Made by a program: the position numbers and the translations under genes. A DNA stretch of 64,000 bases, from contig JBBHKE010001182.1 in NCBI GenBank assembly GCA_037447655.1, positions 199,272-263,271 on the forward strand, written 5' to 3'. Source of the stretch: Zygnema cylindricum. Taxonomy: Eukaryota; Streptophyta; Zygnematophyceae; Zygnematales; Zygnemataceae. This document shows positions 1 to 49,856 of the stretch, in pieces; position 1 is the stretch's first letter; every line of letters starts with the position of its first letter. Below the pieces are notes generated by a model, which searched no databases, had not been told where the DNA came from, and saw only the letters and a list, made by a program, of their open reading frames with translations.

Positions 1-726
1 GCTAAGTCCTAATTTATATACTCACAGTGTGTATCTACTGATCTACACTAATTCGGGTAACCGTTACTACGGTTATTATCGTGACTAACGACAAAGCATC
101 CTACCCGTACGTCACTGTACCTCAAAAAACACTAATTACTAATTTCTAAAAACCTGATTAATAGAACACTATTTTATATCACACTAAACGACAAACTAAT
201 GTTATTCAAATATTTACAGAAATTGAACCGTACACAAAACGTTCTAACCGTACACAAAACGTTTCAAATGCTTAGTTAGCGGTGACCGCTAAAGTCCAGC
301 CGAATGTGGTCGTGTAGTACGAAACACCTGAGTGCTTCGTCACTTGTGGTCCCACGCGAATCACGCTTGTGGTCCCTCGTGAATTATGCTTGTGGTCCCA
401 GGTGAATCGCGTCCGTTGAAACAGATTCGATTGACGGTGGTACCGTCGATCTGTATCATATGTTTCCGGAATACTCGGGACAGATCCCGTTCGTCCGATC
501 ATGTGAATCGCATCGTCAACTTTTTGACACGTATGCTTGACTGTCGGCGCTACTCCGAAAAACCTGCATACGTTCTTTCGCCAACACGTGTCCCTGCAAA
601 AGTACAATACACTCTACTGTACCTTTTGCTACTCTAACACTAATTAAGGTAAGTATTACTAGAAAAAATATCCTAAGTTATTTTTACCTCTATAAACTGA
701 AATAAGATTTATAAATTCCAACAGTT
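1..726. other. Upstream or intronic DNA, no gene recognised
   Basis: No exon or conserved frame could be recognised. Short frames on both strands lack any family resemblance. The stretch holds a 20-bp direct duplication at about 225-264 (core ACCGTACACAAAACGTT) and a 23-bp triplet repeat listed separately. Scattered copies of the word ACACTAATT recall the ends of the TA-flanked MITE family seen elsewhere in the window. It may be intron of the gene whose last exons start at 1739, or its flank. Confidence 0.5.
343..411. repeat. 23-bp tandem repeat, three copies
   Basis: Three adjacent units start at 343, 366 and 389, each beginning CTTGTGGTCC and ending near GAATCAC, GAATTAT and GAATCGC. The copies differ at a few positions each. 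No function is visible. Confidence 0.75.
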
Positions 727-5230: not shown

Positions 5231-6397
5231 CTAATTTGGGTACACAATCCAATATTGTAGCCGCCATAGTCTGTATTCACATACGCGACGATTGAACATG
5301 TGTAGCGAAGGACGAACTAACAAATTGGCCTCACGGAGTCTACCAATATCGATCACGTTCGTCCATTTGGAGCGAACCCGGTGTGCTAGTGAACCATGGC
5401 GAGCCGCGTCAATAGTAAGAGGCGGACCAATTAATTGTTCGATCCGTTGATTATCAGCCAAGACTCTAGGTCTTGAATCATTATAGGCTGCGACATTTTC
5501 CAAGATATACCCCATAGGATGATCTAAAGTTTGTAGAAAATGCAGGATGCGAACGAATTCAAAAAATAGTTTGGTGCGGGGATCAGCTAATCCGAGACCT
5601 TTCCCGGCCCGAGACATTCCCTAGCACTCCCATCCTCCAAGAACTAGATCGATTGGACCAATCTCTAGTAAGTGATGGTTGCCCACAATCTGAGTGTCGT
5701 GTAGGAGGGCAGTATGCATATGCTCGTATGCAGATTTTGGTAACAAATGCGGGTATTAGGAATGCAACAGATTACAATGATGTAATTGTGCTTTCCGTGC
5801 TAACGGATCAATCTCAACCAAATAATAAAATCGGATTAATAATCCATTCCGCAAACATGCAAGGAGGGAAGTGCCTATTCCAGCGAACAGGTCCAAAATC
5901 ACCAATCCATTTAGATTAGGTTTCCATTGGACCGAATTCCAATTAATGGGAAGAAACCCAGAAGAGTCTGTATGGATTCGGATTGTAGGAGAGACTAGAG
6001 AAAGTGGAATTGACAAGGTTTGGTTATAGATTTGGTCAAATTCCGTCGTATCTATAAGAAAACGTGGGTCACTGAAATTTTTTGGTAAGTAAGAACTATC
6101 GGGCAGAATTTCTTCTACTGACAATGAATGAAATATTTCGGCCCCCATTGAATTCCTTGAAAATGCAGGTATGGATGTGGCCGAATTTGCCATAACAGGC
6201 ATGGGCTTCCTAGCGGAAATTAACGGAATGCAGATTTTGCGTTCCGGGAAGTTAGTGGGCCTATAAGAAAATGTCTGATCATGCATGTCAACTCCACCCC
6301 CTACACGAAATATAACATCCTGTCTCACTAGGCATTCATAGTCACTACATTTAGTGACCAGAGCGTAACCCGAGATCTCAGGAAGGTCTGTAGCCAT
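5231..6397 (-). pseudogene. C5 cytosine DNA methyltransferase, broken
   Basis: DNMTs transfer a methyl group from SAM to cytosine C5. From 6397 the frame first gives the tail of the protease and a linker. From about 5914 it gives motif I, VILDLFAGIGTSL, then YYLVEIDPLAR (the region that binds SAM adenosine). Motif IV reads LGGWEC, with a stop codon at 5624-5626 where the Gln of the usual PCQ would be. Next come FFEFVRIL, motif VI in YILENVAAYN (5500s), and a motif VIII-like DAARHGSLAHRVR followed by WTNV. A second stop (TAA) lies at 5756-5758. Both stops and all motifs share one frame, so this is one gene with nonsense codons rather than two genes. The catalytic Cys is kept; Pro before it is Glu. 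Target-recognition and motif IX-X regions are short or lost at the 5231 boundary. Its closest DNMT class cannot be decided by eye. Confidence 0.8.
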
Positions 6398-6403
6398 TCC
6401 GCT

Positions 6404-7117
6404 CTAGAACCTGAAAACGAGCGGTTCCTTAGTGATTCCTAGGACTTGCTCGGTTGTACCCGCTGATGTTAACAAACGAGTAGAAGTGGTCTGAAGCTTG
6501 TCCAGAGTTAGACCAAGCTTGAGTGCAAAGCTAGAGACCAATATAACCGGCTTTTCACCCGTATCCATGAAAGGCAGGGAAGGGGCTATACCATTGATCA
6601 ATAATGCACCCTTCCCGTTATCCAAAAAACTGATGTCAGGATGGAGGGAATTTCGCTCCTCTATAGAAATAGGCTGAATAGCAGCAAAATTTTTGTGCAG
6701 ATAAAGTGCTTGTAACGCGGCAGCTGCACCTGATCTATCGGAGGTAAAGGAGATAAGGGAGATTTCTGGTGAGTCGGAAATCATAGTGGATAGAATGCAC
6801 AAGCGTTCTTTTACGCGGTGTGCCTCATGTATAGTTCGATCCACTATGTCGAGAGCTTCAGCCGCGATGGCAAAAGCGGTTTCGGGCAAGGGAGGAGAAC
6901 GTTCTTTAGTGAATGACAAAGGGATGCGTTTGTTAGGAGTTTTACCGTCACGGCTGTGATCGGTCGAACCTTTGTCGAACGTAGCCTCTCGTTGTTGGAT
7001 GGTAGAATCTCGTAAGATTCGACCTGCCAACGTGGGCATGTGTACAACAGTGCGAGCCATGCCTATAAACTGTGGCTTCATTTGAGTCATGAAGGTTGCG
7101 AATTGTTCCTTCATCAT
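6404..7117 (-). pseudogene. Retropepsin-like protease of the DNMT retroelement
   Basis: Contains a linker rich in charged residues, then LLINGIAPSLPFMDTGEKP and ILVSSFALKLGL, a good fit to the retroviral-type aspartic protease active site (DTG followed by hydrophobic beta strands). The protease tail (SGYALVTKCSDYECLV, RVGGGVD) lies beyond the TAG at 6404-6406 in the same frame. Such proteases cleave the Gag-Pol polyprotein. The active-site Asp is present; only the nonsense codon breaks the frame here. Confidence 0.75.
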
Positions 7118-7132
7118 AGCCTCTAATCGCTC

Positions 7133-8275
7133 TTACATTTCTAAACGCTCTCTCTCTTCTCGAGATACCCTAGGTGGAGTAGTGTCCTTCTCCGGTTCTT
7201 TAACTGGTTGAACCGGTTTTGCGGATCGAGCGGGAATGCCACCATTCTTAATTTGGTTGTGATAGGAAAATTCCGGGTTCTTTATATGACAATGTTGGAC
7301 ATAGTGTCCGGTTTGCTTGCAATGTGTACAGGTAACAGTTTTGTCTGGACACATTCGGGCATCATGCCCCGTCTTCCCACATCGAAAACATAATCGATTT
7401 CTGGGAGCAACAAGTGGGGTTCCCATGGCCGGGATTTTAGGAGGCCGGTTGTTAGGACGAGGATTGTACTATGGTGGAACAATCGGTTCTTTCGGGACCG
7501 CTTTAGGACGGTCATAGGCTTCCCACCAACAATTTTGCATTTCGTATTCCACGGCATGTTGGGCGGCTTGGTCGAAAGTGAACTTCAAGCCGTAGGTTTG
7601 AGTCAGATGACTCTGGATAAATTTTTTAACCTGACTCGAAAACTGTCCCACAAATTTCTGGACAGCTTCAGCATCCGACATTAAGTCCGGCAATGCTTCA
7701 CGAAGAGTTTCTATACGAGCACGCATGGCAGGAGCGGTCTCTCCTGACTTCTGTTCGAAGTTCATTAACTCACTAACTTGGTCAGGGTTTTGCTTACACT
7801 ATTCCGCTTGCAACATTTTGAAACATGACAGAGAGCGGATCCAGTATAGGGATCGTCATAGCTAGTCGTGCTGGGGTTCCAGCACGTGCGGCTATAGCAA
7901 ACTGTTGCGGTATTTCCACAACTACTGCTGTATTAACATCGCCGTTGAGATCAAGGACTTCCGGGATAGCCGATTGGTAAGGAATTTCTGGTTGTCCTAT
8001 AATAGCAGACTCACAGCGAAAGCCGGAGAAAACTCTGTCATCGCAAGTACGGAATCATACTTGCGGGAATAAAGAGTAAGGGTTAAACCGCGAAGGTAAC
8101 GACCTAAAAAAGAGAAAGCGACCCGTAGGTCAAACCGATCTTGGTACCGAAATGTAAGATCACGCATTTCGGTATCGAATAGCATTCGAAAATGCGATAA
8201 AGTCATGGTGTCCTTCATTCCTAAAAAACAGAAATGAAGGCGACCCCCTCCCTCGGATGTGGAAGCCATTTCCAA
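7133..8275 (-). pseudogene. gag of the DNMT retroelement, two CCHC zinc knuckles
   Basis: Segment 7765-7469 is a capsid-like helical region (MNFEQKSGETAPAM... AAQHAVEYEMQNCW). After a TAG at 7469-7471 the frame continues into two intact CCHC knuckles, CFRCGKTGHDARMC and CTHCKQTGHYVQHC, which bind nucleic acid. A TAA at 7133-7135 ends this segment. Upstream, a TAG at 7799-7801 and a one-base shift near 7824 separate the capsid from the N-terminal part (8275-7997, starting MEMASTSEGGG). All main segments share the frame of the protease and DNMT. The true start is not certain; the ATG at 8275 is the best candidate. Confidence 0.7.
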
Positions 8276-11200
8276 TAATGGAATGATTGGGGATAATAAT
8301 GAATTTGTAATTTGTGGAAACCAAAAAGATAATAAATTGGAATCCGACCCGTCAAGGGAATCGTGGTCAGATTCTTCCTCAAAAAATGTGGAAGAGACTG
8401 ATGATAAGGAAGATACAGAGGTGAGAGAAGATCGAACCCAAGGGGAAACTTAACTTAAGATATTCGGGAAAAGATGGTCCAAAAGACTAGGTAAATCTGA
8501 TGGTCCTGATTCTGTGGGCCTAAACGGGGCCAACGATCGGGTGGTTCCGAAAGGATAATCGAGATTATCCTAATCGGTAGGCATAAAATGATAAAACCAA
8601 ATGACAATCGGATAACAAAATCGATCTATAAGAGGTGCTTCAAATGCTAGACCACACCACTCACTCGTCCAATCAGCCAATCAATCTCTAAAATGGCCTC
8701 GATGGCCAGATCTATCAGGAAGCCGTATTACCAAAACCTTTTACCCTGCAAACAAGGGAACAAAGCCGAAGGGCCAGATCTATAAAGGCAAATAACTTAA
8801 TATCCAAGCACCCACAAGTGCAGATCTAAAGCGACACAATCCACAAAAGAGCTAACCAATGCCTCCAACGACAAGATGTATGGAAGAAATTCCACACCGA
8901 ACAAAGCAAACTCAGCCAAGGCCACTCAGGGCCAAATAGCAAGCATGGAAAGCTGGACAAATGCAATGCTCAATACAAGTGGATTAACACTAATCCACTC
9001 CAAACACGATCCCTCTAAACGATCAACCGACTACCTTAGCACGCGCCTGTACCCGCAAGGCATTGTGATGCTTACATAACACTCTTAGCAATCTGGTGAT
9101 TGCAAAGGGTGAACTGCGGTTGTTCGCTACAACCGAAGTTTTGCAGAGCTCCCAAAAACGGATCCGCTCCACTAACTCCTCTCTTTGGTGAAGTATGTCA
9201 CACATTGAGCACACGGTGCCTCTTATCTAAGCAAAAAGAAGGAGGAAACAAAAACCAAATACTTAAGTTAGTGTAGTGTATCGTTGGCCGAAAATTGGCC
9301 AATAAGATAAAAACGTCAACCAACAAGCAAATGGTAATTATAAATGTAAAGCTAATTATAGATTTTTGTAGAAATGTATCTATAAATATATATTTTTGAT
9401 TTTTGAATATTTTTTTTTCTTTTTATTTTAACCAAAGAAAATTGAAATTGAAATAAAACAAACAAGCGAGAAAAGAAAAGAGACAATTTTCAAGTGCAAG
9501 AATACTAAGCCGATGGATGACCACTAGGCTCCACGGTCTATTTATATTCATTGCAGGAGTTATCTATATCGCGAATAATCTGAATTTATACTTAAATAAA
9601 TTAAATCAAAACATAAATAACCGAGAAAGATAAATAAAAATTGAAAATGACAATATGCCCGACACTTATGAGGTTTGAGATAACCAAACTCAAAAGATGC
9701 GCAAAAGCCAAATAGAAATAAATACACAATCACAAGAAATAAAAACAACAAATCAATAATCCCAACATGCAACTTCCACACTAATTAAAGTTTAGCCACA
9801 GCCGAGGAAAGAAGTTTGTGTCGTGAGAACGCGGTCAAAATCCAGTCAAAAGGATGAGAGAAGTGAAGGGAAACCGTGTAGGTCTTGGCCGAAGCCGTAT
9901 AGATTAATATGTAAGGCTTTACAAGATATTGATAATGTAGTAGAAAACTAGACGCTTCACGCAAAGGTAGAAAATCGCCTCTAAGTTGTCTAGACAATTT
10001 TACAAATAAAAAGATGGCTGTAGAAAATCCTCAATACTGAAAATAAATAATTCCTGCACTTGAAAATCTGCACTTGAAAATTGTGTGCACGAAATGATCT
10101 AAAATGAACTAAGTAACAAAAACTACGCCTAACGAAAACAAGCCAATCAGAGTACAGCGTGCTATGTGTTGTTTTTAGAAAGCTTTAGTCCTCTTTATGC
10201 CTCAGCTGTGAGAGAGAGCTGTTCAGGACTTAAGCTATTTTTGGTTGAGTTCGGTTCAGTACTTACCGAAATTAGTGTGACAGTGAAGTTGGGAGTTCAC
10301 GGTTCATTCACACTTGGGACACGTGTCGTCACTTGGGAGAATGCGTGAGTATGTCCTCCGTGGACGTACGGAAATTCGGCAGGACCACTGGACTTCGTAA
10401 AGTCAATTCTACGGTGCCAAATCCTGTAATCGGACCGCTGACAGCCGCCGCCAACAAATAGTGACGAGGCGTGACTAGATCATTATCACTTTACGTTGTC
10501 TTAACTTCGGTGTAAATATTTGTGATAGAATGTTAGATGTACGGCTGGAATGCCTCCGTACAGCTTAGTGTAGTTTCGGTGTATAAAAGTAGGACTTAGC
10601 GAATTTGATTTTTAGGAACAAATGATATGAAAACTGTACACTCAGTTTTATGTAATTTCATTTCTACATATCTCACAGATTTGTGAGCGGAATTGATTGA
10701 AATTTTGTGTGTGTGTTCTTTTGTATGTCAGCTACATTGTGGAAAATATTCAGGACGTTGGGAGCGTTTTTCTGAAAGTTATAGTCTGTCAAAGTTTCTG
10801 TTCAGCCATCGGTATTTGTGGAAGCTTCCTCTCTTGATTTGTTCTACGATGACTACTGCTGCATCTTCTTCATCTTCAGTGCCAGTAATTGTGTCAGAAC
10901 AACACTATGTAAGTATTTGCGTCTAGTTTGGATTCAGCCAAAAGGAGGCCGAAATCCTATGCCCTACGTTACAGAATCTATAACCTACGGATTAAAACCC
11001 TTCCTATCTACGTGTGAACGCATGAACCTCCAAATGGTTCACGACTTAAAATGGTCCAATGACGTCGCTTCGTCAAACCTGACAACCGATTTGTCTGTCA
11101 TTTGCATCGACGGTCCAGATGTGATGTAACAAAAATTGCATATTCGACGTCGACGGCCGAGATTCTCTCTCACGCGAAATGATTCAAAATGTCGTCGACC

Positions 11201-11819
11201 AGGATTTCCGGGAATGAAAGTAGGTACGGTATACATAAAATCATCGAAGTAGCCGTCGGCGGAAATCGCGGCAGATAGATGTGATACGGAAAGATCATTG
11301 TACCGACGTGAATTTAAACATAAGTCGTCGCGCGATTTTCGAAAAGTATAAGTCGTACGGTCGACGTGAAATGACGAAGTCGCCGTTGGCAGAAATTGCG
11401 GAAAATAGATATTATATGATCAAACTCGCCGTCGGCGGAAATTACGCAAATTTTGAGTTGTACGTCGGCGCATATTACGGCCAAAAATACATATGTACGG
11501 TTGACGCGTACGGCGATATGTAAGTATGTACGGTCCTGTAAAACCCAAAAAAACACCCAAATACAAATTAGTGTGGCGGCTGCTCGTCCTAATACCTAAA
11601 TATAAACAATTAAAATGGCCGACGAGATGCGGCATGACACGATTGTAGACGACTACAAAACATGTGACAATGGGTGACACTACGAAAATAGCTTGTTTTA
11701 CGTCTTAGAAAATAAAATCTTGATTTCAAAAAGTGCGATGGTAAATATCATCGAAATACAAAAGGGTTTTAAAAAAGAAAAAGTAACGATTAAAGATTAT
11801 AAAAGCCAAGTGAGGCAAA
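8276..11819. other. Gene-free stretch, possibly including the retroelement 5' region
   Basis: No protein family recognised on either strand. By position, 8460-10160 could hold the 5' leader and LTR of the minus-strand DNMT retroelement, but without a second LTR in the window this cannot be shown. 9350-9480 is strongly AT-rich. At 11130-11530 a word like GCCGTCGGCGGAAAT recurs near 11252 and 11429, with a weaker form (CGCCGTTGGCAGAAAT) near 11380, among many GTACG words. Short frames (for example 10818-11129) look like chance. Confidence 0.4.
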
Positions 11820-14457: not shown

Positions 14458-17400
14458 TTAGTCACTTTTCAATTTAATACCACACTTTTCCCTACAGAAA
14501 ATAGGCTTAGGGGAAGGCACAAGTTTGGTCATCAAAACTGCTACCATCTCACTATTTGGTCTGTACTCTAAACTGATCATTTTGTCTTCTACCTTCTCTC
14601 TAACAAAGGATAGTCTAATGTCCCTGTGTTTAGCTTTAAAATGATGTTTAGGATTGGCAGCAATAGCGATTGCTGCCTGATTATCACAAAAAAAAATCTG
14701 CACATCACTCTTAAGGTGACCAAGCTCACCAAGCAAAGACTCGACCCACATCAATTCTTTTACAGCAAAGCAATATGCCATATACTCAACCTTCATGGTG
14801 GACTGAGCAATAACCTTTTGTCGTTTGTTACTCTAGCCACAAGCCCCATCACCCACATATAATAAATATCTAGAAGTACATCTCCTCATCGGAGCATCAC
14901 CATAACTAGCATCACTCCAAGTGGCGATGTCAGTATTCCCCTCACCGAAATGCAACTATAGATCTATAGTTCCTATCAAATATCTAAAGACTATCTTACC
15001 TGCCTCCCAATCTCTCTTAGAGGGAGCATTTAGACTTCTACCCAACACTCCTACAGCTGCAGCTAAATCCGGCCAGGTATAATTCATAAAATAGATTAGA
15101 CTTCCGACTACTTGTCTGTAAGGAATAGTCTGCATGGACTTTTGTTCTTCAGGACCTAATTCCTCGTCTAAGATTATGACTCCTTCTTTCACACTCCCCT
15201 CACTTCCCTTCTTTAACTCCATTGGAGTTGTACAACTATTAGCCTTATCCATCTGAAAGTTTTCCAACATATGCCTTATTGCTTCTTTCTGAGTTAGTCT
15301 TATAATCTTTCTTTCTCGGTCTCTTTCTAATTGAATACCCAATATATATTTTGCCTCCCCCATATCCTTGATCTTAAATCTTCCCTTAAGATGCGTTTCA
15401 GTTTATTAATTTTGTCCATTGGTTTACTTAAAATAGGCAAATCATCAACATTAATTGCAATAAAAATAACACATTTTTCATCTTCAAAAACATAGATTGA
15501 GTGATCTGAGCTGATCGAGATTATTCCCAAACCGGTGAAAAACTCATCAAGCTTCTTATTCCATTGTCGGGGTGCTTGTTTCAAACCATAAAGAGATTTA
15601 ATTAGCCAGCAAACCTCACTCTCCTCTCCATGCTCCACAAATCCTTCTAGTTGTTGCATGAAGATCTCCTCTTCCAATTCTCCCTGCAAAAAAGTTTTCT
15701 TGATGTCCATCTAGTGCACTTCCATGTCTTCCGCTGCTGCCACATTGAGAGGTATGCGGACGGAGGGAAATCTGACGACCGAGGCAAAGGTTTCCTCGTA
15801 GTGGATTCCCTCTTTCTGTGTAAATCCTTTAGCCACTACCCGGGCCTTGTGGCCCTCACTAGTGTTATCCGGGTTCAGTATTAATTTGAACACCCACTTA
15901 CAACCGATTGGTTTTCCGTTAGGTGGACAATCCACCAGCTCCCAAGTATCGGCTGCCATAATTGAGGCCATCTCCTCATTGATGACTGTCTTCCACCGGT
16001 TCCTTTCTGGACAATTCATCGCCTCTCCATATGTCCGAGGTTCATCCGGATGAGATAGTTTTGTTACCTTGTTATTAACATGTTTTTCTTGCAACCTTTT
16101 GCTACTTCTCCTTCCTCCCTCAAAATCTGCTGTGGGAATAGATGGTTCCCGTGGGTTCTTTCGAACAATCTCGGCTTCTCCCTTGTCCTTTGATTTTGGA
16201 TCAATTTCCACCACGTCTTTCGTTTCGGGTACAGTTGTCACTAGAGTTTCCGCGGCCGAGTCTTTCTCGGTCTGATTTGTTCCTGCAAGAATGTCATCTT
16301 CTCTAAATTATAGATAGTTAGGAAGCTCAAAGTCATTGGAATTTTCTGACTCAAATCTGATTTCTACTGACTTTGTATAATTAAAGGGATCCATAGACTT
16401 TCCTTCATCCATAACTACTAGGTTTCACTAAGATTATATCTTCCCTTTTTAGATCATAAACTTTGTACCCTTTTCCATCCTCATCATATCCTAATAAGAT
16501 TTTGATTTTCCTTAAAGATCTAGTTTCCAATCAGACCGATATGTATCTAGACTAAACACTTGACTGCCGAAAACTTTAAGTGAGATATGTCTGGTTTCCG
16601 GCCGGTCTATCTCTCATAATGTGTTTGGCCTTTTACCGCCGAAGTAAGAACTCTATTTTTTAGGTAATTAGCACAGTTCATTGCTTCGGCCCAAAACCTT
16701 TTTCTTATCTTCTTATTTTACACTATAATTATAACACTATCACTTAGTGTCATATTTAATCTTTCAACTACCCCATTTTGTTCCGAGTTTTCTAGAACTA
16801 TCTTTTGGTGTTGGACTCTATCTTCCCTCAAAAAATCCTCAAACTAGTTAGAGGTATATTCTCCACCATTGTCACTCGTTACTCTCTTGATTGGGGTTTA
16901 ATGAAGTTTTTCACTCCATGCCTTATATTGTCTAAAACATTCATGAGCATGTGACATAATTTTCAAAAAATACACCCTAGAATACCGAGACCAATCATCG
17001 GTGATAGTCATCATAAATCTCTTCCCCCGGGTGAGGGCACTTTGGCTGGTCCCTAAATATCTGTGTGTACCAAATCTAGAATCTTTTCTCCCTTATAGGT
17101 GGCAGTTTATGGAAAGGGTAACCTGTGTGCTTTACCTTGTGCACATCCATTACAATCACTTAGATTCTCACTCTCACCAAACGGATTCCCTTCCACTACT
17201 CCCATCTTTTTCATCTCTCTTAACTTATATAGATTCACATGCTGAGGCCTCTTATGCCACAACATTATATCATGAACACCAGCATAATAAAGTTTCTTCT
17301 TTTCATTGCTTAAAATCAGCCTAAACATCCCTTGGCTACCTTTTTTAGCCGTGAAATAAACTTCCTCCTCTAAACTAGCAGTAAAGACTCCATTCCTAGT

Positions 17401-17688
17401 GCTAGTATCAAAACCTTTATCATTTAATACACATGTAGAGATGAGGTTTTTGTTCAACTCCGAAATTAACAATACATCGGAGAATGTAACTATATATATC
17501 ATTTTTTCTAGTAATACTTTGAGATCTATCGATCCTACAAGAGTAGTAGTGACTATCCTCCCATCCCCGTACTCTTTCTCTACGGTGGGAATCTTTTTTA
17601 TCTTAGTGAACAGGTGTTTATCCTTACAAATGTGCATGGAGGCACCTGAATCTACAATCCAGCTTGCTTCACCTTTCAATCCACCCAA
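14458..17688 (-). pseudogene. C2 copia pol remnant (protease, integrase, RT, RNase H)
   Basis: Read downward from 17688: protease with WIVDSGASMH and active-site DSGA intact, the GAG-pre-integrase segment with WHKRPQHVNL, a badly decayed integrase core (17100-16300), the linker RNPREPSIP...RRSSKRL, RT from KPIGCKWVFKL (about 15920), YGLKQAPRQWN, and RNase H with CDNQAAIAIAANPKHH ending at 14458. The RT catalytic box reads NVDD instead of YVDD. Frames at 15711, 15327 and 14956 are joined by shifts and stops, so no polyprotein can be made. Confidence 0.88.
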
Positions 17689-18273
17689 AACACATTTTTG
17701 CTTTCATGGAATTTCGACCTCGTTTTTCGCCTCCACCTCCTCATCCAATAAGAGCTCATCCTCCTCGTCCTCGGATTTTGCCTCATGTACCTGTGTCACA
17801 AGGGCCTTTTTCTTTCCTCTCAGGGGTCCACCGGTCTGCCCCTCCTTTAACTGAAACTTGGTTAGCTTAGTACACTCTGTCATATAGTGTCATGGTTTCT
17901 TGCAAAAGTGACACAACCCCTTTGAGACCCTCGGTCCTGATTCAACGATCTGCGTTTTCTGTCCTCCTCCTTTATAGTTTCCTACTGATTTTTTGGGATC
18001 CTTGCTCCTTTAGTCAGTTTTTGTTGCCAAAGCTTGTCCACTCTTCCCTCCCTTTCAGATCTCAATTGTATTCTCTCGAACGAGAATCATCCCTACCATA
18101 GAATTCGAGATCCATCTGGAATCCGGCAAATCTTGCACACGGTTTACTATGTTTTCATAGTCATTCAGTATCTTCATGAGCAGGCAGTTAACCTTGACCT
18201 TTTCTGTTTCTACCTAGCAAGCACTCGCTAGTTCCCTGAAAACGGTTGGAAGCTCGTTACAAAAGTCTAGCAT
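17689..18273 (-). pseudogene. C2 gag remnant, N-terminus deleted
   Basis: In decayed form on the minus strand it matches the C1 gag from about the KGGKMLDFCNG region through the knuckle to the acidic linker before the protease. The sequence jumps at 18273 from gag straight into LTR (CTACCAAATTTTCTAA). The start codon, PBS and about 300 bases of LTR are therefore missing. Confidence 0.75.
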
Positions 18274-18742: not shown

Positions 18743-19799
18743 TGTAGAAATTAATGGTCTTTTAAAGTATTTTCTAGGTCTGAATAGAAATAAGAAAGAA
18801 GCCGAGGCAGTCAACCTCTAAATTCTCTCTCCAACTCTCAAACTTGTCGCAGTCACTGAGAAATTGGAGAGGGAGCTAGAGCCATGGCTACCTAGGCTAT
18901 CCAGAGGTTTACGGGAAAATATATATTAGTTAGGGGTTTATTTACTAAAAGAGATGTGCCGGCCACAGGATTTGATCCTGGTACCTACCGGTCGGCATAC
19001 AGCCGGTAGCCGTTAGCCTTAGCCGTTAAGTCTAGAAGTAGTGTTACGTACTATATGGTTTGATAATTATTTAAACATTTATACGTAGGATAGTTCATTT
19101 AACTGTAACTGTTTACAAGAGACATATATCTAGTAAATGTAAAAACACGGATTCCGGTACATATAAGAAACCAATACCGCGCATTTATTTCTTTAGTGAA
19201 ACGAATACCGCGCATGTATTTATTACAGCTACGATTAAATGTGAATTTAATCGGACGGTCGGAATTAAGGCCGAGATCGCGGAAGAGGATATCGGCAGTT
19301 TGTGGTCATCGCCACATCAGATGACATGTGGCGGAATGACATTGGATCGCGGCATCTCCGAGGATTAAGGGAGCAAATCCGGACATACCACGTGTCGACA
19401 TTTAGGCCATGTCGTACAGTGTCCTTACATAAAGTACACCGGCAACTGTATTTTTGTGTACGGAACTGAAATCTGATTGGCTCCGTACATCAGTAGATAG
19501 AGTCTGTGAGAGAGAGATAGGACTTAGAAAAATTAGAAGATAGGACCCTCTCTCCCAGAGAGCTTCTGTACAAAAGGTCAACTTTGACCCTCCATAACTT
19601 ACTGCTCAGGGGAGCAAATTCAGAGATTCTTTTTGCTATCAACTCAAAGGAGTCTCGCCTTCACAAGGGTGAAGTTGGTTATAGTTTTTTTCTGCCACGG
19701 TGGCAGTTATTTTTGCTGAAACACAAAGGGGTCAGGGTTATCGTAGAGGCTTCTTGGAAGCTGTCCACTCTGGGGACTTATGGAGGTCTCAGAGTTTCA
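18743..19799 (+). repeat. 5' LTR of copia C1
   Basis: 1057 bp, TGTAGAAATT to GAGTTTCA. The LTR includes the stem-loop (18818-18900), antisense tRNA-like module (18957-19032), CACGTGTC G-box near 19398, and the gag start codon at 19780 only 20 bases before its end. It keeps a 45-46 base segment near 19510-19555 that the 3' LTR lacks. Confidence 0.93.
18957..19032 (-). other. Antisense tRNA-like module in the C1 5' LTR
   Basis: On the minus strand: CTTAACGGCTAAGGC (D-arm-like), ACCGGCTGTATGCCG, then CCAGGATCAAATCCTG (T-arm-like, close to the Pol III box B GGTTCGANNCC with two changes). The 3' LTR copy lies at about 24356-24433. The orientation is opposite to element transcription. Confidence 0.55.
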
Positions 19800-22700
19800 G
19801 GTTATGGGCCCACCCTTTAGGGTACCAATCTTTAATGGAACTGGCTTCATATACTGGGAAAGTATGATGATAGGAGCTCTATGCGAAAAAAGGTTTTGGG
19901 GGATAGTGAGTAGACGGTTGTGGCGTCCATCAAGTCTTAGAATTCCTCCTGGGTTTGGAGGAAGCAGATTCACCAGAAAAGAGGATCTACCCTCAACGGA
20001 GGAAGCAAAAGAAGCAGAGGTGGTGGAAAAAGGAAAGGAGAAGGAGGCGACCACACCAATAGCAACTGGTTCGGCATTCATGTCACCAATTCCGAGGAAC
20101 GAGGAGAATGATAGTGAAACCTGGGACTTCAACAATATGGCGGCAAAGCACTTCATCCTACGCCATCTCACTCAAGGACTTCCATGTCCTCATTTGCAGG
20201 TAGAAAGGGCATCCAATCTTTGGATGGCTCTCATAGAGATGTACGGAAGTGGTACGATTCAGCAATAACAGTTGGCTGATCAAAAAGTTAAGGAGTATGT
20301 ATACAAAGGGGGGAAGATGTTGGATTTTTGCAATGGGCTTGCTACACTCTTCATGGAGCTAGAGAGTGCGGGAAAAAATTTTAGTGAAAAAGAAAAGGTT
20401 AACTGTTTACTGATGAAGTTACCCGATGAGTTCGAGAACATAGTCAATCGTGTACAGGACTTGCCGGACTCAAGGTGGATATGGAACTCAGTGGTAGGGA
20501 TGATTCTCGTTCGGGAGAATACGATTGAAATCCGAAGGGGAGGAAAGAGTGGCCAAGCCTTGGCAACTGCGACCGATTGGAGGAACAAGGATTCTCGGAA
20601 ACCGGTCGGAAACTATGGGGGGAGGGAGCAGAAAAATCACACCGACGAGTTCGAACCAAGGGCTCTCAAAGGTTTATGTCATTTTTGTAAGAAACTTGAG
20701 CACTATATGGCAGAGTGCACTAACCTAACCGAGTTTCGGTTAAAGGAGGGGCAGACCGGTGGTACCCCAAGAGGAAAGAAAAAGGCCCTTGTGACACAGG
20801 TACATGAGGCGAAATCCGAGGACGAGGACGATGAGCTCCTTTTAGATGAGGAGTTGGAGGCGAAAAACGAGGTCGAAATACCACGAAAGCAAAAATGTGC
20901 TTACGGTGGATTGAAAGGTGAAGCAGGCTGGATTGTAGATTCAGGTGCCTCCATGCACATGTGTAAGGATTGGCACCTGTTCACTAAAATAAGAAATATT
21001 CCCACCGTAGAGATAGAGTACGGGGATGGGAGGATAATCACCACTACTCTTGTAGGATCGGTAGATTTGAAAGTGTTAGTAGAAAGAAAGACATCCATAG
21101 TAACATTCTCCGATGTATTGTTTATTCCGGAGCTGAACAAAAACCTCATCTCTACATCCGTATTAGATGATAAGGGTTTTTTTACTAGCACTAGGGAAGG
21201 AGTCTTTACTGCTAGTTTTGAGGAGGATGTCTATTTCATTGCTGAGAAAGGTAGCCATGGGATGTTTCGGCTGGTTTTAAGTAATGAAAAGAAGAAACTT
21301 TATTATGCAGGTGTTCATGATATTATGATGTGGCATAAGAGGTTTGGGCATGTGAATCTAGACAAGTTAAGAGAGATGAAAAAGATGGGAGTGGTGTAAC
21401 GGATTAAGTTTAGTGAGAATGATAATATAAGTGATTGTAGTGGATGTGCTCAAGGTAAAACACACAGATTACCCTTTCCTAAAACAGCCACCTATAAGGG
21501 AGAAAAAATTCTAGATCTAGTACACAAAGATATTTTGGGACCGGCTAAAGTGCCCTCACCGGGGGGGAAGAGATTTATGATGACTATCACTGATGATTGG
21601 TCTCGGTATTCCCAAGTGTATTTTTTGAAAAACAAGTCCAAAACTAAGGATTGTTTTAGACAATATAAAGCATGGAGCGAAAAACTCCATGAAACTCCAA
21701 TCAAGAGAATAAGGAGTGACAATGGTGGAGAGTATACTTCTAACCAGTTTGGGGATATTTGAGGGAAGATGGGGTCCAACACCAAAAGACAGTTCCACAA
21801 AACCCGGAACATAATGGGGTAGCTGAAAGGTTAAATAGAACACTAAGTGATAGTGCTAGAAGTATGTTGTCAGATAAGAAGATAGGAAAAAGGTTTTGGG
21901 CAGAAGCAATGAACTGTGCTTATTACCTCAAAAATAGAGTTCTTACTTCAGCTATAAAAGATCAAACACCTTATGAGAGATGGACGAGCCGAAAACCAGA
22001 CATATCTCACTTGAAGGTTTTCGGTAGTCAAGTATTCAGTCTAGATACAGATCGGTCTAATTGGAAGCTAGATCCTAAAGGAAAACCGGGATACTTATTA
22101 GGATATGACGAGGATGTAAAATGATATAAAGTTTATGATCTAAAAAGGGAAGATATAATCTTAGTAAAGCATGTAGTAGTTATGGATGAAGGAAAGTCTG
22201 TGGATCCCTTCAAATATACAAAGTCAGTAAAAATTATATTTGAGTCAGAAAATTCTGATGACTTTGACCTCCCTAACTATCCAGGTTTTGAGAGAAAATG
22301 ACATTCTTGCAGATACAAATCAGATCGAAAATGACTCGGCTGTGGAAACTCCAGTGACAACTCTACCCGAAGCGGAAGACGTGGTGGAAATTGATTTGGA
22401 ATCAAGGGATAAGGGAGAAGCCAAGTTTGTTCGAAAGAATCCACGAGAACCATCTATTCCGGCCTCAGATTTTGAGGGGGGAAGGTGAAGTAGCAAAAGA
22501 CTACAAAAAAAAAGGTTAATAACAAGGTAACTAAACTATCTCATCAAGATGAAGCTCAAACTTATGGAGAGGCGATGACTTGTCCAGAAAGAAACCGGTG
22601 GAAGACAGCCATCAATGAGGAGATGGCCTCAATTATGGTAGCTGATACTTAGGAGCTGGTGCATTGTCCACCTAACCGAAAACCAATCGGTTGTAAGTGG

Positions 22701-24131
22701 GTTTTCAAATTAAAACTGAACCCAGATAACACAAACGAGCGCTACAAGGCCCGATTAGTGGCAAAGGGATTTATACAAAAGGAGGGAATTGACTACGAGG
22801 AAACCTTTGCTCGGTGGTCAGATTTCCCTCCGTCCCCATACTTCTCAGCGTGGCAGCAGCGGAAGACATGGAAGTGCACCAGATGGACATCAAGACAGCC
22901 TTTTTGCATGGAGAATTGGAAGAGGAGATCTTCATGCGACAACCCGAAGGGTTTGTGGAGGAAAGAGAGGAGAGTAAGGTATGCCGGCTGATTAAATCTC
23001 TTTATGGTTTGAAACAGGCGCCTCGACAATGGAATAAGAAGCTTGATGAGTTTCTTACCGGTCTGGGATAAATCCGGATCAGCTCAGATCACTCAATCTA
23101 TGTTTTCGAAGATGAGGAAGGTATTATATTTATTGCAATTTATGTTGATGATTTGCTTGTTTTGAGTAAACCAATGTAAAAAATTAATAAACTGAAAACC
23201 GATCTTAAGGGGAGATTTGAAATGAAGGATATGGGGGAAGCAAAATATATTTTGGGAATTCAAGTAGAGAGAGATCGCAAAAGAAAAATTATAAGGTTGA
23301 CTAAAAAGGAAGCAATAGGGAACATGCTTGAAAATTTCAAATGGATAAAGCTAATAGTTGTACAACTCCAATGGAGTTGAAGAAGGGAAGTGAGGGGAGT
23401 GAGGAAGAAAGAGTCATAGTCTTAGACGAGGAATTATCTCCTGAAGAGCAGAAGTTCATGCAGACTATTCCTTACAGGCAAGTAGTGGGAAGTCTAATCT
23501 ATTTTATAAATTGTAACCGGCCGGATTTAGCTGCAGCTGTAGGAGTACTGAGTAGAAGTTTAAATGCTCCCACTAAGAGGGAATGGGAGGCAGCTACGAG
23601 AGTAAATATTTGATAGGAACTAGGGATCTATGGTTGCATTTGGGTGGGGAGAATACTGACATCACTACTTGAAGTGATGCTAGTTATGGTGATGCTCCGA
23701 TGAGGAGATGCACTTCTGGATATGTATTATATGTGGGTGATGGGGCTTGCTGTTGGAGTTGCAAACAGCAAAAATTTATTGCTCAGTCCACCATGGAGGC
23801 TGAGTATATGGCCTCTTGCTCTGCTGTAAAAGAATTGATGTGGGTCAAGTCTTTGCTTTGTGAGTTTGGTCACCTTAAGAGTGGTGTGCAAAAAATTCTT
23901 TGTGATAATCAGGCAGCAATCGCTATTTCTGCCAATCCTAAACATCATTTTAAACCTAAACATATGGACATTAGACTCAGCTTTGTTAGAGAGAAAGTAG
24001 AAAACAAAATAATCAGTTTAGAGTACCGACCAGATAGTGAGATGGTAGCAGATATGATGACCAAACCTGTGCCTTTCATTAAGGTAATTTTCTGCAGGGA
24101 AAAGTGTGGTCTGAAATTAAAGATTGACTAG
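19780..24131 (+). pseudogene. C1 gag-pol polyprotein, broken
   Basis: ATG 19780 lies in the LTR and the frame crosses the PBS. Gag runs to a CCHC knuckle CHFCKKLEHYMAEC (about 20680). Then come the protease WIVDSGASMHMC, GAG-pre-integrase WHKRFGHVNL (about 21335), integrase core with DDWSRY, SDNGGEYTSNQF and NGVAERLNRT, the linker SVAVE/RNPREPSIP region, RT KPIGCKWVFKL and YVDDLL (catalytic box intact, about 23140), and RNase H with AEYMA, CDNQAAIAI and KHMDIRL ending TAG 24131. Stops include 20266, 21397, 22122, 22486, 22651, 23069 and 23177. Frameshifts lie near 21765, 22503, 22815 and 23338. No active product is possible from this copy. Confidence 0.93.
19800..19814 (+). other. Primer-binding site of C1, internal tRNA-iMet type
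   Basis: GGTTATGGGCCCACC directly follows the LTR end TTTCA. It is the reverse complement of GGTGGGCCCATAACC, the anticodon arm of plant initiator tRNA-Met as I recall it. Most plant copia elements pair with the tRNA 3' end (TGGTATCAGAGC) instead. The same 15 bases encode part of the gag N-terminus (QVMGPP). Confidence 0.8.
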
Positions 24132-26725: not shown

Positions 26726-28080
26726 TCAACCATCTTCTATTCTAAAGTATTTGACATGCCTCTCATTCAATGGGTCAGAATTCCCTTCCGAAATATTCTT
26801 GCAAATCACTACAAATAAAGGATCATTATCATAACCATTTCTAACTGCCTCTAAAAACAATTCATCTCGAACCATCACACTTATTTCAAAACATCTACTC
26901 AAAGGATCTGCGACTACATTTCTTTTTCTAGGAATATGTTTGACATTAAATTTGAAATATGCAAACTTCTGCATCCACCTAACTTGTCTGCCAGTCATAA
27001 TCTGTGCATCACTTAATTTTTGTAGAGAGGAGAGTGCCTCATTATCACAGTGAACTGTAAATTCTTTATCATGCAAATAACAACGCCATTTCACCAATTC
27101 ATGAACAATTGCAAGTAATTCTTTTTCATGTGCTGGATAGTTTTTTTCAGCATCATTGAATTTCGTGGATTCAAAAGCACTAGGGTGAAAATGTTTGCCG
27201 ACTTTTTGACTTATGAATGCACCTAAACCTTTATCAGATGCATCAGCAGTGATCATAATTTCAAATTCTTCAGCAAAATCAAGATACACGAGTGTAGGGG
27301 CGGAGGTCAACTTCTCTTTTAGTTCCTCGAAAGTTCTCTCGTGATTGGTTCCCCACACCAACGTCTCTTTCTCTCGAAGTAAACCCATAAAAGGTGCGGC
27401 GATCATAATAATGTTCCTGATAAATTTCCTTTAGTAAGTGGCCAACCCCAAAAACGATCTAACTTTTGTGACATTAGTGGGTTGCTTCCAATTTTGGATT
27501 GCAATTATTTTAGATGGATCTGTTTTAACACCTTCCCCACTAACTACATGTTCCAAAAATAGTTGTTCACTTTTAAGAAAACTGGTTTTTGACAATTTTC
27601 TTTATAGTTTTCTTTCCCTTAACCTTTCCAACACTTTCTTTAAATGAATTAAATGTTGTTCTTTATATTTGGTGTAAATTAGAATATCATCTATAAACAC
27701 CTAAACAAGCTCATCTATATAATTTGAAAAGGTTTGGTTCATTAATCTTTGATAAGTAGGCGCTGCATTCGTCAAACCAAATGGCATCACTATCTATTTA
27801 AAATGACTTATTCTACTTCTAAAAGCAGTTTTGTGAACATCCTCGGTTCTAATTGGCACCTGATTAAAGCCACTACTCAGATCAATCAAAGAAAATAAGT
27901 TAGCAACTTTCAAACGATCTATCAAGTCAGAAATTAAAGGTAACGGATACTTATCCTTCACGGTAATCTTGTTCAGACTACGATAGTCGACACACAATCT
28001 CAAAGTTCCGTCTTTCTTTTTGACGACGAGAACTGGTGCTACGTACGGTGATTTGCTGGGCTGAATATGTCTTTTCTCTA
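26726..28080 (-). pseudogene. G1 reverse transcriptase and RNase H
   Basis: RT begins near 28080. [20 protein letters not shown] and [10 protein letters not shown] lie at 28003-27800, the stop-broken MPFGLTNAA stretch follows, and the catalytic box VFIDDILIY near 27690 is intact. RNase H follows with ADASDKGLGAFISQ, AHEKELLAIVHELVKW and VHCDNEAL, ending at 26726 near the start of the integrase zinc-binding region. Stops and frame changes occur between 27794 and 27406. RT-RH followed by integrase is the Ty3/gypsy order. Confidence 0.9.
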
Positions 28081-40069: not shown

Positions 40070-41560
40070 ATGTTCAAAAACCAGCTGCAGGAGCTCGCCC
40101 AGCGCAGCTGCTTCAACCTCCCAGCCTACGCCTGCCTACGCGAAGGCCCGGATCACGCGCCGCGTTTTAAGGCGACCGTTAGTTTCAATGGCGAAGTTTT
40201 CCAATCCCCGGGCTTCTTCAGCACTCTGCGCCAAGCCGAGCACGCGGCCGCCGAGCAAGCTCTCAGCACTCTGAGCCGCAGGGGCCCCGCCATGTCTCTG
40301 GCGGCCCGGGTGCTGGACGAAACTGGCGTGTGCAAGAATCTGTTGCAGGAAACGGCGCAGAGGGCAGGTGTCGCCCTGCCGGCGTACAACACTGTACGGT
40401 CGGGGCCCGGACATCTGCCGGTGTTCACTTGTACGGTCGAAGTGGCGGGGATGAGGTTTGCAGGGGAGCCGGCGAAGACCAAGAAGCAGGCGGAGAAGAA
40501 TGCTGCCATGGCGGCGTGGTCGTCGCTGAAGAAATTTGTGAACAAGGGCCAGGCGACACCTCTCGCAGACATCGAAGTATGTGATGAACAGGAACAGAAC
40601 ACCATCGCTCGTGCCCTGGCCACAGTGGGAAGCCGTGGGGAGCGTCTCTCCAATAGTACCGGCAATATTGTCCAACCGTCTCTCCTCCAGCAACAACAGC
40701 GTATTACTCCGTACCGTAACTCCATGGAGGAACGCATTATTCAGAGAGGAGGTGGACCTCCGTCAGGACCGCCTCCAACCTATATTCCTCACCACGTGAA
40801 TCCCACATGGGTGCCGATGGAGAGGAGGTCTCAAGATTCTTTGACTGGGTATTCGCACGAGATGTTACAGAATGGGAGGTTTCCTCAACAACAGCAGGTG
40901 TCTGGACAGAATCTCATGCAGTCTCAGAATGGAACAAGGACTCCGGGAGCTTCAGGTTCTGTTGTTGTACGCCATACCAGTATTGCCATTAAACCAGGAA
41001 TGGCCTATCAGCCCCGTCCCCGTATGCTGATCGAAGAAACAGCCCTTGAAGTTGACTACCGTCCTCCTATGGCATACCAACCTCGTGCCCGGCAACTTCC
41101 TGCGGCTGGAGTTATTGGAAGCGGTATGGCTCTTTCCAGCAGTTCCATGCGCTCCGTTCCTCCTTCTCCTGCGAGACAGCAACAGACTCTTGATGAGCAT
41201 CAGGCGGATGAGGAGGAGTGGCTCCGAGAGACGACAGGAAAGAAGGAGACTGTGGGGCTGTCCCAGCCGGTTCGACAGGAAAGCAACAATGAGATGAGTG
41301 GAGATATGATGTGGCCTCAGTCGTACTGGCCACACAGTTTGGGGAGTAGCATGTCGTCTATGACTGGAATGGGAATGGATCTTTCTCACATCGGAGTTAG
41401 TGGTATGGATGGAAGACTCGCCCCACCTGTCACAGTACGCACACTAATTCAAGTGCATGCGGCTCCACGCCGCTCGAGAGACGAAGAAGACGAGGATGCG
41501 AGTGATTCTATCGAAGGAGAGGTTGCGACACGACAGGTCCTTAGCCAATTGAGCCTCTAG
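40070..41560 (+). CDS. Double-stranded RNA-binding protein, DRB2/3/5 type
   Basis: An intact 496-residue intronless frame with start context CCACCATGTT. Residues 1-70 form a first dsRBD (KNQLQELAQRSCFNLPAY, EGPDHAPRFKATVSFNGE, then LRQAEHAAAEQAL). Residues about 84-154 form a second (LDETGVCKNLLQETAQRAG, GPGHLPVFTCTVEVAG, KTKKQAEKNAAMAAWSSLK). Both retain the KKQAEKNAA-type helix that contacts RNA. The sequence follows Arabidopsis DRB2 closely through both domains. The rest is a Gln/Pro/Ser-rich, probably disordered tail with one conserved patch near the C-terminus (LAPPVTVRTLIQVHAAP), which seed-plant DRBs also have. The DRB2 clade acts with or against Dicer-like enzymes in small-RNA production and has nuclear and cytoplasmic pools; that role here is inferred from family. 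The tail makes the protein longer than seed-plant DRB2 (about 430 residues). An intronless form could be a retrocopy, but the frame is perfectly open. Confidence 0.95.
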   Translation: MFKNQLQELAQRSCFNLPAYACLREGPDHAPRFKATVSFNGEVFQSPGFFSTLRQAEHAAAEQALSTLSRRGPAMSLAARVLDETGVCKNLLQETAQRAGVALPAYNTVRSGPGHLPVFTCTVEVAGMRFAGEPAKTKKQAEKNAAMAAWSSLKKFVNKGQATPLADIEVCDEQEQNTIARALATVGSRGERLSNSTGNIVQPSLLQQQQRITPYRNSMEERIIQRGGGPPSGPPPTYIPHHVNPTWVPMERRSQDSLTGYSHEMLQNGRFPQQQQVSGQNLMQSQNGTRTPGASGSVVVRHTSIAIKPGMAYQPRPRMLIEETALEVDYRPPMAYQPRARQLPAAGVIGSGMALSSSSMRSVPPSPARQQQTLDEHQADEEEWLRETTGKKETVGLSQPVRQESNNEMSGDMMWPQSYWPHSLGSSMSSMTGMGMDLSHIGVSGMDGRLAPPVTVRTLIQVHAAPRRSRDEEDEDASDSIEGEVATRQVLSQLSL

Positions 41561-47855: not shown

Positions 47856-48640
47856 CTATTCCTTTAATCCCACTGTGTCCCTACAATACTTCAGCTTAGA
47901 AGCAGGAAGAGCTTTAGTGAGCATATCAGCAATCATTTTTGCATCTGGCAAATAACATAACTTAATCACTCTAGAGAACACTTTTTCTCTTACAAAGTGT
48001 AATTCTACATCCATGTGCTTGGTTTTGAAGTGATGACTCGGGTTAGAAGCAATGGGAATGGCTGCCTGATTATCACACCAGATCACCTGTGGACCAACTT
48101 GCATGTGTCTTAGTTCTTGTAACATGGATTTTACCCATAAGAGTTCTTTGAGGGCCAAGCTTGCTGCCATATACTCTGACTCCATTGTCGACTGTGCTGT
48201 AACCTTTTGAAGTTTGCTGCTCCAGCAGCACGTACCGTTCCCAATTTGTAGAACGAATCCCGTGGTGGATTTTCGGCTTGGCATGTCGCCATAGCTTGCA
48301 TCACTCCATGTTTGCAGCTTGACTTCTCCTCCGCCTAGGGTGAGTTTGAGGTCTTTGGTTCCGGCCAAATATCTTAAGACTCTCCTTGCTGCATCAAAGC
48401 CAGATTTTCTCGGATTCTCTAGACTCCTGCTCAGTACCTCGACTGCTGCAGCAATGTCAGGACGGGTACAATTCATGAAATATATTAAGCTTCCGACTAT
48501 CTGTCTGTAAGGTATTTGTGTCATAGAATCATTCTCCCCTGATTCTAAATACTCGCTAACAATGACACCTGGTTCTGTCTCTTCTCCCTCTAACTTCTGC
48601 CAAACCTCCATTGGAGTTAGACATCATTTTGCCCCCCGCA
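47856..48640 (-). pseudogene. C4 RNase H and RT C-terminal part
   Basis: A 251-codon open frame from MEVWQKLEGE (48611) to TVGLKE (47856). It has the RT tail IPYRQIVGSLIYFMNCTRPD and the RNase H motifs WSDASYGDM, QSTMESEYMAA, WCDNQAAIPIASNPSHH and HMDVELHFVREK. The frame reads open to its own stop, but a TGA just upstream at the gag-pol level and the C3 insertion break it from RT. Confidence 0.9.
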
Positions 48641-48645
48641 TTCCG

Positions 48646-49838: not shown

Positions 49839-49856
49839 CTCCCCTTATTTTCTAGT

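Follow-up and report, generated by a model that had tools for sequence, protein, structure and literature searches.

A stretch of 64,000 nucleotides from Zygnema cylindricum (contig JBBHKE010001182.1, positions 199,272 to 263,271 of the forward strand; the window) carries a Gypsy-type retrotransposon with its own cytosine DNA methyltransferase (DNMT), in a decayed copy that lacks its 3' part. The copy occupies the minus strand from 11639 to 5309, as established by comparison with other copies in the genome; the fuller copies have the order gag-CCHC-protease-DNMT3-reverse transcriptase (RT)-RNase H-integrase-PHD finger within split direct repeats (A1-coding-B1-A2-B2), an identity that we regard as close to certain. 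The original prediction, a model's reading of the window sequence, had proposed a retrotransposon with a cytosine DNMT, and this is upheld by 20 further copies, all of which share the succession gag, protease and DNMT and 18 of which have a fully covered RT. With a replication scheme and roles for the DNMT and the PHD finger added to the identity, we give the explanation as a whole a probability of roughly 0.8. An element-borne methylation enzyme is of interest as a direct test of what cytosine methylation, which hosts use as a weapon against transposons, does for an element that carries it.

Results

The decayed copy in the window

The minus-strand frame at 5231-8275, to which the prediction had referred, is decayed and holds two CCHC knuckles (7390-7349 and 7330-7289), a DTG protease (6571-6548) and a cytosine methyltransferase of the DNMT3 class. 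The latter is recognizable by motif I (LDLFAGIGT, 5896-5870), motif IV (GGWEC with the catalytic Cys, 5638-5624), motif VI (ILENVA with its ENV, 5506-5489) and motif VIII (LAHRVRSKWTN, 5389-5357). In Pfam, the knuckles match zf-CCHC (1.5e-6), and DNA_methylase is matched both by the C-terminal 241 aa read with X at stops (2.8e-11) and by the unbroken 129-aa piece alone (3e-5). The best PDB match of the window DNMT is DNMT3A (4.4e-12). Every motif named in the prediction is borne out, and the DNA_methylase match, the lack of which would have refuted it, was obtained. Asp_protease_2 remained below the cut-off both in the window (0.032) and in the same region of L010, one of the fetched copies (3.4e-4).

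The predicted span holds only in part. The frame is real, but it is interrupted by 11 internal stops in addition to the terminal one, part of gag lies in another frame between about 8000 and 7800, and the element is larger than the span, with the same frame staying open upstream to 8449. Homology to the other copies ends at 5309 in 17 of 20, at 5301 in one and at 5293 in two, and most of 5231-5308 (minus strand), the tail of the frame, is therefore not element, three copies matching for a further 8-16 bp. Everything 3' of DNMT motif VIII is missing, and the window copy has no RT, integrase or 3' repeats (matches to the window did not exceed 66 bp). It is dead, a 5' piece truncated inside the DNMT and broken by stops.

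Its parts, all on the minus strand, start with the 5' terminal repeat A1 (9502-11639), which begins with TGTCATGCCG at 11639 next to the flank CAATCG and was delimited by this boundary and by blastn, the 1475-bp A repeat of L010 matching the window at 84-91% over A positions 1-110, 507-823 and 818-1475. A1 is split by a 737-bp insert (10168-10904) that probably arrived later as a small insertion; in 15 of the 20 fetched copies the adjoining parts match on either side and the insert is lacking. Directly after A1 lies a putative primer-binding position (9484-9501), of which 15 nt are complementary to the A1 stretch at 10083 (strings compared by eye). It is followed by the gag region with the two knuckles in several broken frames (7136-8449, homologous to L010 gag), the C-terminal part of gag with the aspartic protease (6407-7132, with a homologous region in L010) and the DNMT (5309-5950, the 5' limit being approximate), which has stops at 5758 and 5623.

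The whole element in fuller copies

The genome (352,776,454 bases in 2,689 contigs) was searched at the DNA level, which yielded at least 44 matches with 40 of 1,102 candidates scored. We fetched 20 copies from other contigs at 10 kb each, selected for matching most of the window query, and read domains in these, in five of six further fetched DNMT loci, in the piece L035 and in the window. The resulting plan is A1 - gag - CCHC - protease - DNMT3 - RT - RNase H - DDE integrase - PHD finger - B1 - A2 - B2. In L010, Pfam searches of four open pieces taken apart found CCHC, protease, DNA_methylase (9e-12), RVT_1 (2e-30) and RT_RNaseH (2.5e-33), with the DNMT between protease and RT, and at the integrase end Integrase_H2C2 (2.4e-13), rve (6.4e-13) and a C-terminal PHD finger (2.9e-10). 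No chromodomain match up to E 0.1 was obtained with Pfam in L010, the PHD finger standing in that C-terminal place. The PHD finger is covered in 17 of the 20 copies, and L035 represents another copy with the same RT-RNase H-integrase-PHD set. Its nearest solved relatives are the PHD fingers of PHF12, DPF2/3, KDM5A, lid, WSTF and BAZ2, with ATXR5 and UHRF1 further down; they are mostly readers of the histone H3 tail.

Split repeats, ends and priming

Both flanks were fetched for five copies (L010, L012, L013, L015 and L022), each of which has A1 on the 5' side, next to a different flank, and A2 after the coding region. A1 and A2 are 99.5% identical in L010 (1475 bp), 99.1% in L012 (1384 bp), 99.6% in L013 (1388 bp), 93.5% in L022 (1521 bp) and 96.1% over 876 aligned bp in L015, where A2 is cut short. 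A first reading with plain long terminal repeats (LTRs) was dropped; the sequence after A2 is shared by the five copies and represents B2 (about 191 bp). In L010, the B repeat measures 192 bp (99.5% identity), with B1 beginning 15 bp beyond the stop codon at the end of the PHD piece; of the 20 fetched loci, at least 18 contain B, L028 in two pieces. Since B2 lies outside A2, the element is not bounded by two plain LTRs. Of the RT and LTRs for which the original prediction had proposed to look in intact copies, the RT was found, but the repeats proved to be split.

The element ends in TGTC...GACA and is flanked by a perfect 4-bp target-site duplication (TSD) in three of the five copies, namely CCCT (L010), AAGG (L013) and GACA (L015). 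The internal B1|A2 junction reads GACA-GC-TGTC, like two joined element ends with two extra bases, and a 22-bp pattern around it occurs with up to two mismatches at 418 places in the genome, compared with none for the reversed control. The 18 nt that follow A1 in L010 are complementary at 18/18 positions to A position 902 of 1475 (best of 300 shuffles, 15), and the self-complementary match is also exact in L013 (18 nt) and L012 (14 nt). As such, the priming site resembles the self-priming type known from Tf1, an LTR element with a primer site complementary to its own transcript. A tRNA-type primer site was not assigned, and no search aimed at tRNAs was made.

Class and relatives of the methyltransferase

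A first DNMT search of a protein collection gave eight matches and a polyprotein search 11, all at E 2.6e-33 or better. A profile of 11 DNMTs (profile A2, not to be confused with the repeat), consisting of that of L010 and ten matches from the collection, eight of these from the polyprotein search, was compared with PDB. DNMT3A scored best (79.7 bits, collinear from motif I to X over profile positions 20-344), followed by DNMT3C and 3B, then by 4onj (52.6 bits), a DNA methyltransferase that we take to be tobacco DRM, 3g7u (45.3 bits), HhaI (at most 42.6 bits) and DRM2 (41.6 bits). By these alignments, the element DNMT is of the DNMT3 class and not rearranged like DRM.

In the metagenomic relatives, the DNMT either precedes RT or follows RNase H, and the integrase-PHD tail is similar wherever it is covered. 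P0010, P0013, P0014 and P0015 combine DNMT, integrase and PHD, P0011 and P0016 DNMT and RT, and P0009 and P0012 protease and DNMT; the order with the DNMT behind RNase H rather than ahead of RT is that of P0011, P0016 and P0019, and the Pfam DNMT match taken alone is below the cut-off in P0013, P0014, P0016 and P0019. The integrase C-terminus and the PHD finger align collinearly across both DNMT orders (seven rows), which argues for one backbone. Searching the collection with the profile gave 40 matches, with 8,000 candidates scored, and the E values leave a gap from 5e-15 to 2e-7; none of the search results from this collection is named Klebsormidium nitens, most matches carrying no name. Above the gap also lies P0031, a hypothetical protein with the source name Chlamydomonas eustigma, in which a DNMT remnant and integrase-like sequence were read by eye and which looks like a retrotransposon piece with an integrase tail. 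In P0010, a weak Tudor match (2.1e-4, below cut-off) follows the PHD finger at residues 1060-1077, and a similar stretch was seen by eye in P0015. Four stretches in viral contigs matched the search pattern, none of which encodes a relative of the window DNMT.

For a tree, 64 proteins with a domain match were available, 45 of them with at least 170 aa, and 40 were used (P0032, P0037, P0039, P0046 and P0052 were dropped as short or weak). The element DNMTs and 17 rows of unknown context form one clade against DNMT3A and the bacterial enzymes (100/99). All eight rows with the DNMT before the integrase or after RNase H share one clade with 12 of unknown order (100/99), and all eight protease-DNMT rows fall outside this clade. 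Given the long branches, that of DNMT3A included, and the single cellular DNMT3, the tree does not separate one capture from several.

Copy number and families

DNA_methylase scored above the Pfam cut-off at no fewer than 123 genome places (123 of 782 candidates scored), and frames that run open through the DNMT match reach up to 2,395 codons. Only 11 of the 123 lie within the 44 DNA matches, and the union of both searches amounts to at least 151 DNMT places (merged within 3 kb), although some of the unread ones may be exons of cellular DNMTs. In a second family, B (L029 together with L034 and L036, which overlap), DNMT and RT share one open frame; they are preceded by a protease-like piece (2.1e-4, below cut-off) and followed by an integrase with a weak PHD match (0.0039, below cut-off). 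At its locus C1374, a pair of B repeats (335 bp, 97.6%) has GACA ends and one GACA-GC-TGTC junction; after the B that adjoins the coding region comes sequence other than A2, the fetched stretch ends before A1, and the 319 bp after the junction are not enriched in CpG (observed/expected ratio, o/e, 0.82). L031 contains a third, related DNMT (6.5e-14), the piece preceding it having no Pfam match.

Selection and decay

Selection was computed over 21 copies including the window (136-210 pairs). Pooled pN/pS was 0.44 for the DNMT, 0.28 for RT, 0.25 for RNase H, 0.29 for the integrase and 0.28 for the PHD finger, and 0.42 and 0.37 for two gag pieces and 0.46 for the protease. Among DNMT changes found in single copies, 195 were nonsynonymous (N) and 89 synonymous (S), an N/S of 2.19 that is near the unselected expectation by rule of thumb, not by computation, whereas changes shared by at least two copies numbered 58 N and 60 S (N/S 0.97; RT, 17 N and 45 S, 0.38). 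From this contrast we conclude that the DNMT was under purifying selection while copies multiplied and decayed freely after insertion; its constraint is laxer than that on RT. Measured against L010, which itself has stops between its pol pieces, the window and the 19 other fetched copies each show a stop or a frame change in one or more domains. The catalytic Cys and the motif VI Glu are kept in 21/21 copies, the motif VIII Arg residues in 19/21 and 20/21, and the motif IV Gln in 17/21.

Traces of methylation

C-to-T differences between 16 copies amount to 0.056 per site at CG and likewise at CHG, and to 0.030 at CHH, as would be expected of copies methylated at symmetric sites. In five copies, the CpG o/e of the first third of A is 1.96-2.13 (in L015, of its shorter A), compared with 0.86-0.95 for the element body in 16 copies and 0.31-0.65 for three Copia stretches of the window. 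The CpG-dense first third of A is a possible cis target of the element's own enzyme.

Discussion

How the element may replicate

Based on this anatomy, a replication scheme can be imagined that we hold to be somewhat better than an even bet. The transcript would start inside A1, and its 5' part would fold back onto the site just after A1 and prime reverse transcription. The B1|A2 junction would retain the ends that are lost from the transcript, namely the 5' part of A and the 3' part of B, and could serve as the template from which both are rebuilt, as has been proposed for split-repeat elements. The DDE integrase would then insert DNA ending in TGTC...GACA with a 4-bp target duplication.

As regards the DNMT, the chances seem to us evenly balanced that it methylates the CGs of the element's own new copy. 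Being part of Pol, it could travel with the cDNA or the pre-integration complex, the CpG-dense first third of A being its likeliest target, so that the copy would enter chromatin premarked. More tentatively, and by analogy with the chromodomains thought to bias insertion in chromoviruses, the PHD finger may tether the integrase to histone H3 tails and thereby bias the landing site. One could go further and speculate that an old, distinct lineage of retrotransposons in green plants and algae combines a DDE integrase, DIRS-like split repeats, a DNMT3 writer and a PHD reader of silent chromatin, integrates at PHD-bound nucleosomes and pre-methylates its CpG-dense end repeats, the DNMT having moved between two Pol slots on one backbone, but this we consider rather unlikely.

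Several observations weigh against the explanation as a whole. Motif IV reads ECQ for the usual PCQ, with Glu in 21/21 copies and also in P0009, P0012, P0013, P0014 and P0002. The CG/CHG bias suggests that the copies were methylated, without pointing to the enzyme, and the CpG o/e of the element body is not above that of two other window stretches (1.06 and 1.08). The target duplication agrees at three of four bases in L012 (CCTC/GCTC) and L022 (AAAG/AAGG), and the self-primer is exact in only three of five copies, L022 having none of at least 12 nt and the alignment of L015 ending inside A. A scored DNMT lies within 8 kb of only 15 of 100 listed junctions, meaning that many junction copies may be defective, non-autonomous or accompanied by an unscored DNMT. 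Lastly, the DNMT domain of the related KnitGypsy-Dnmt3 element gave no methylation in a yeast assay of 2018, a result that the text of its authors calls inconclusive (PMC5890265).

Weighing the alternatives

The last point, together with the motif IV change from P to E throughout the element family and the laxer shared N/S of the DNMT (0.97 against 0.38 in RT), also lends some weight to the possibility that the domain is kept for another role, such as RNA methylation, structural or nucleic-acid binding, or damping of the element's own activity for host tolerance. Set against this are the unchanged Cys and motif VI Glu, the nearly constant motif VIII Arg residues and DNMT3A as the closest solved match, and we consider another role improbable, though deserving more attention than any of the rivals that follow.

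These concern the identity of the element. The A-coding-B-A-B repeats would fit a tyrosine-recombinase element of the DIRS/PAT type, the more so as DIRS elements can carry methyltransferases, according to the sections consulted of two reports (PMC4157794; PMC5890265). The integrase is, however, a Gypsy-type DDE enzyme (rve and H2C2), no tyrosine recombinase is among the Pfam matches of L010 and the further fetched pieces, the leader has no open run above 100 codons, only 15 bp separate the PHD stop from B1, and the TSD is 4 bp long, which leaves this assignment very improbable. Slightly less probable still is an ordinary LTR element in which B1-A2-B2 is an artefact of nested insertion; such nesting does occur, and another repeat lies in the L010 flanks, but the A-B-A-B layout in 5/5 copies with different 5' flanks and the 418 junctions refute it. 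Looking at the window copy alone, with its stops, its truncation and its lack of RT, gag-protease and DNMT might even be unrelated neighbours joined by chance or by an assembly error; chance joining is what the original prediction had itself named as refuting it. We hold this to be the least credible of all, as it is refuted by the common order in 20/20 copies on other contigs, by the open frames of up to 2,395 codons through the DNMT match, by the DNMT and RT sharing one open frame in L010 and L034, and by metagenomic proteins that join the DNMT with protease, RT or integrase.

Relation to known systems

The preferred reading, a Gypsy-type element with DNMT and split repeats, has a published counterpart. 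In KnitGypsy-Dnmt3 of Klebsormidium nitens, a DNMT3 resides in Pol of a Gypsy element, the repeats are arranged as in DIRS (Fig. 4 legend) and purifying selection is reported (Ka/Ks < 0.2), according to the main text (de Mendoza 2018, PMC5890265). Both elements share the Gypsy order protease-RT-RNase H-integrase with the DNMT in Pol, the DNMT3 class, the A-coding-B-A-B layout and purifying selection; the shared layout strengthens KnitGypsy-Dnmt3 as the closest published kind, as the original prediction had suggested in naming the charophyte elements of 2018. Compared by described features, the Zygnema element belongs to this kind as a variant. It differs in the PHD finger at its integrase end, a term with no occurrence in the 2018 main text, the figures and supplements of which may still hold one. 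For K. nitens that text speaks of "fewer copies" than in Symbiodinium; the present account adds at least 151 DNMT places in several families and resolves the ends, the TSD, the self-primer and the CpG-dense A.

Other systems share single features, as far as the consulted portions of the respective sources describe them. SymbioDIRS-Dnmt3 of Symbiodinium likewise is a retrotransposon with DNMT3, A-coding-B-A-B repeats and two domain orders, but with a tyrosine recombinase in place of a DDE integrase (PMC5890265). A 2025 paper calls the retrotransposon DNMT3s of streptophytes and dinoflagellates Copia and DIRS (PMC12344493), whereas the present element is Gypsy by domain order. A chromatin reader at the integrase C-terminus is found in Gypsy-10_Ec32 (Tudor) and in chromodomain Gypsy elements of Ectocarpus, with no cytosine methyltransferase described in that portion (PMC12477816), and Ginger1-9_HM combines a Gypsy-like integrase with a C-terminal PHD finger, but is a DNA transposon with Ulp1 beside the PHD and without RT or DNMT (PMC2836005). 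An orchid Gypsy element also captured a nucleic-acid-modifying enzyme, in that case an AlkB-like m6A (RNA) demethylase in an additional open reading frame (ORF; PMC9289625). In the literature searched, which covered few subscription journals, we found no retrotransposon with both DNMT and PHD.

With regard to the established classes, the element shares TG...CA ends and a short TSD with canonical Ty3/Gypsy LTR elements but not their two plain bounding LTRs, split repeats with DIRS/PAT but not the tyrosine recombinase, and it has a PHD finger where chromoviruses have a chromodomain. Tf1-type elements have the primer site complementary to their own transcript in common with it, but neither split repeats nor a DNMT.

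This kind of parasite is published but rare. With its many copies, several families and young insertions, the genome of Z. cylindricum opens it to direct measurement of methylation, targeting and selection. The pairing of integrase-PHD and DNMT makes the idea of choosing and marking one's own chromatin testable, and the combination of split repeats with a DDE integrase raises the question how such elements rebuild their ends.

Other features of the window

The gene for a DRB-like protein with two double-stranded-RNA-binding stretches, named in the original prediction, lies at 40073-41557 (Pfam 6.2e-32) and, together with the CG/CHG mutation bias, points towards the plant lineage. Several Copia pieces are located at 15711-17703, 19747-24131, 47856-51845 and 54621-58923, with Copia gag, Pol_BBD and RVT_2 matches in 50161-51845, 20269-21396 and 57976-58920 and the remainder assigned by ORF reading; the stretches measured have a lower CpG o/e than the DNMT element. 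A fragment of another Gypsy-like element, matched only by RNase H models, lies at 26726-27430, and positions 700-1090 are occupied by a long, low-complexity array of CTCTCC-type hexamers with open Ser-Leu/Gly-Arg frames.

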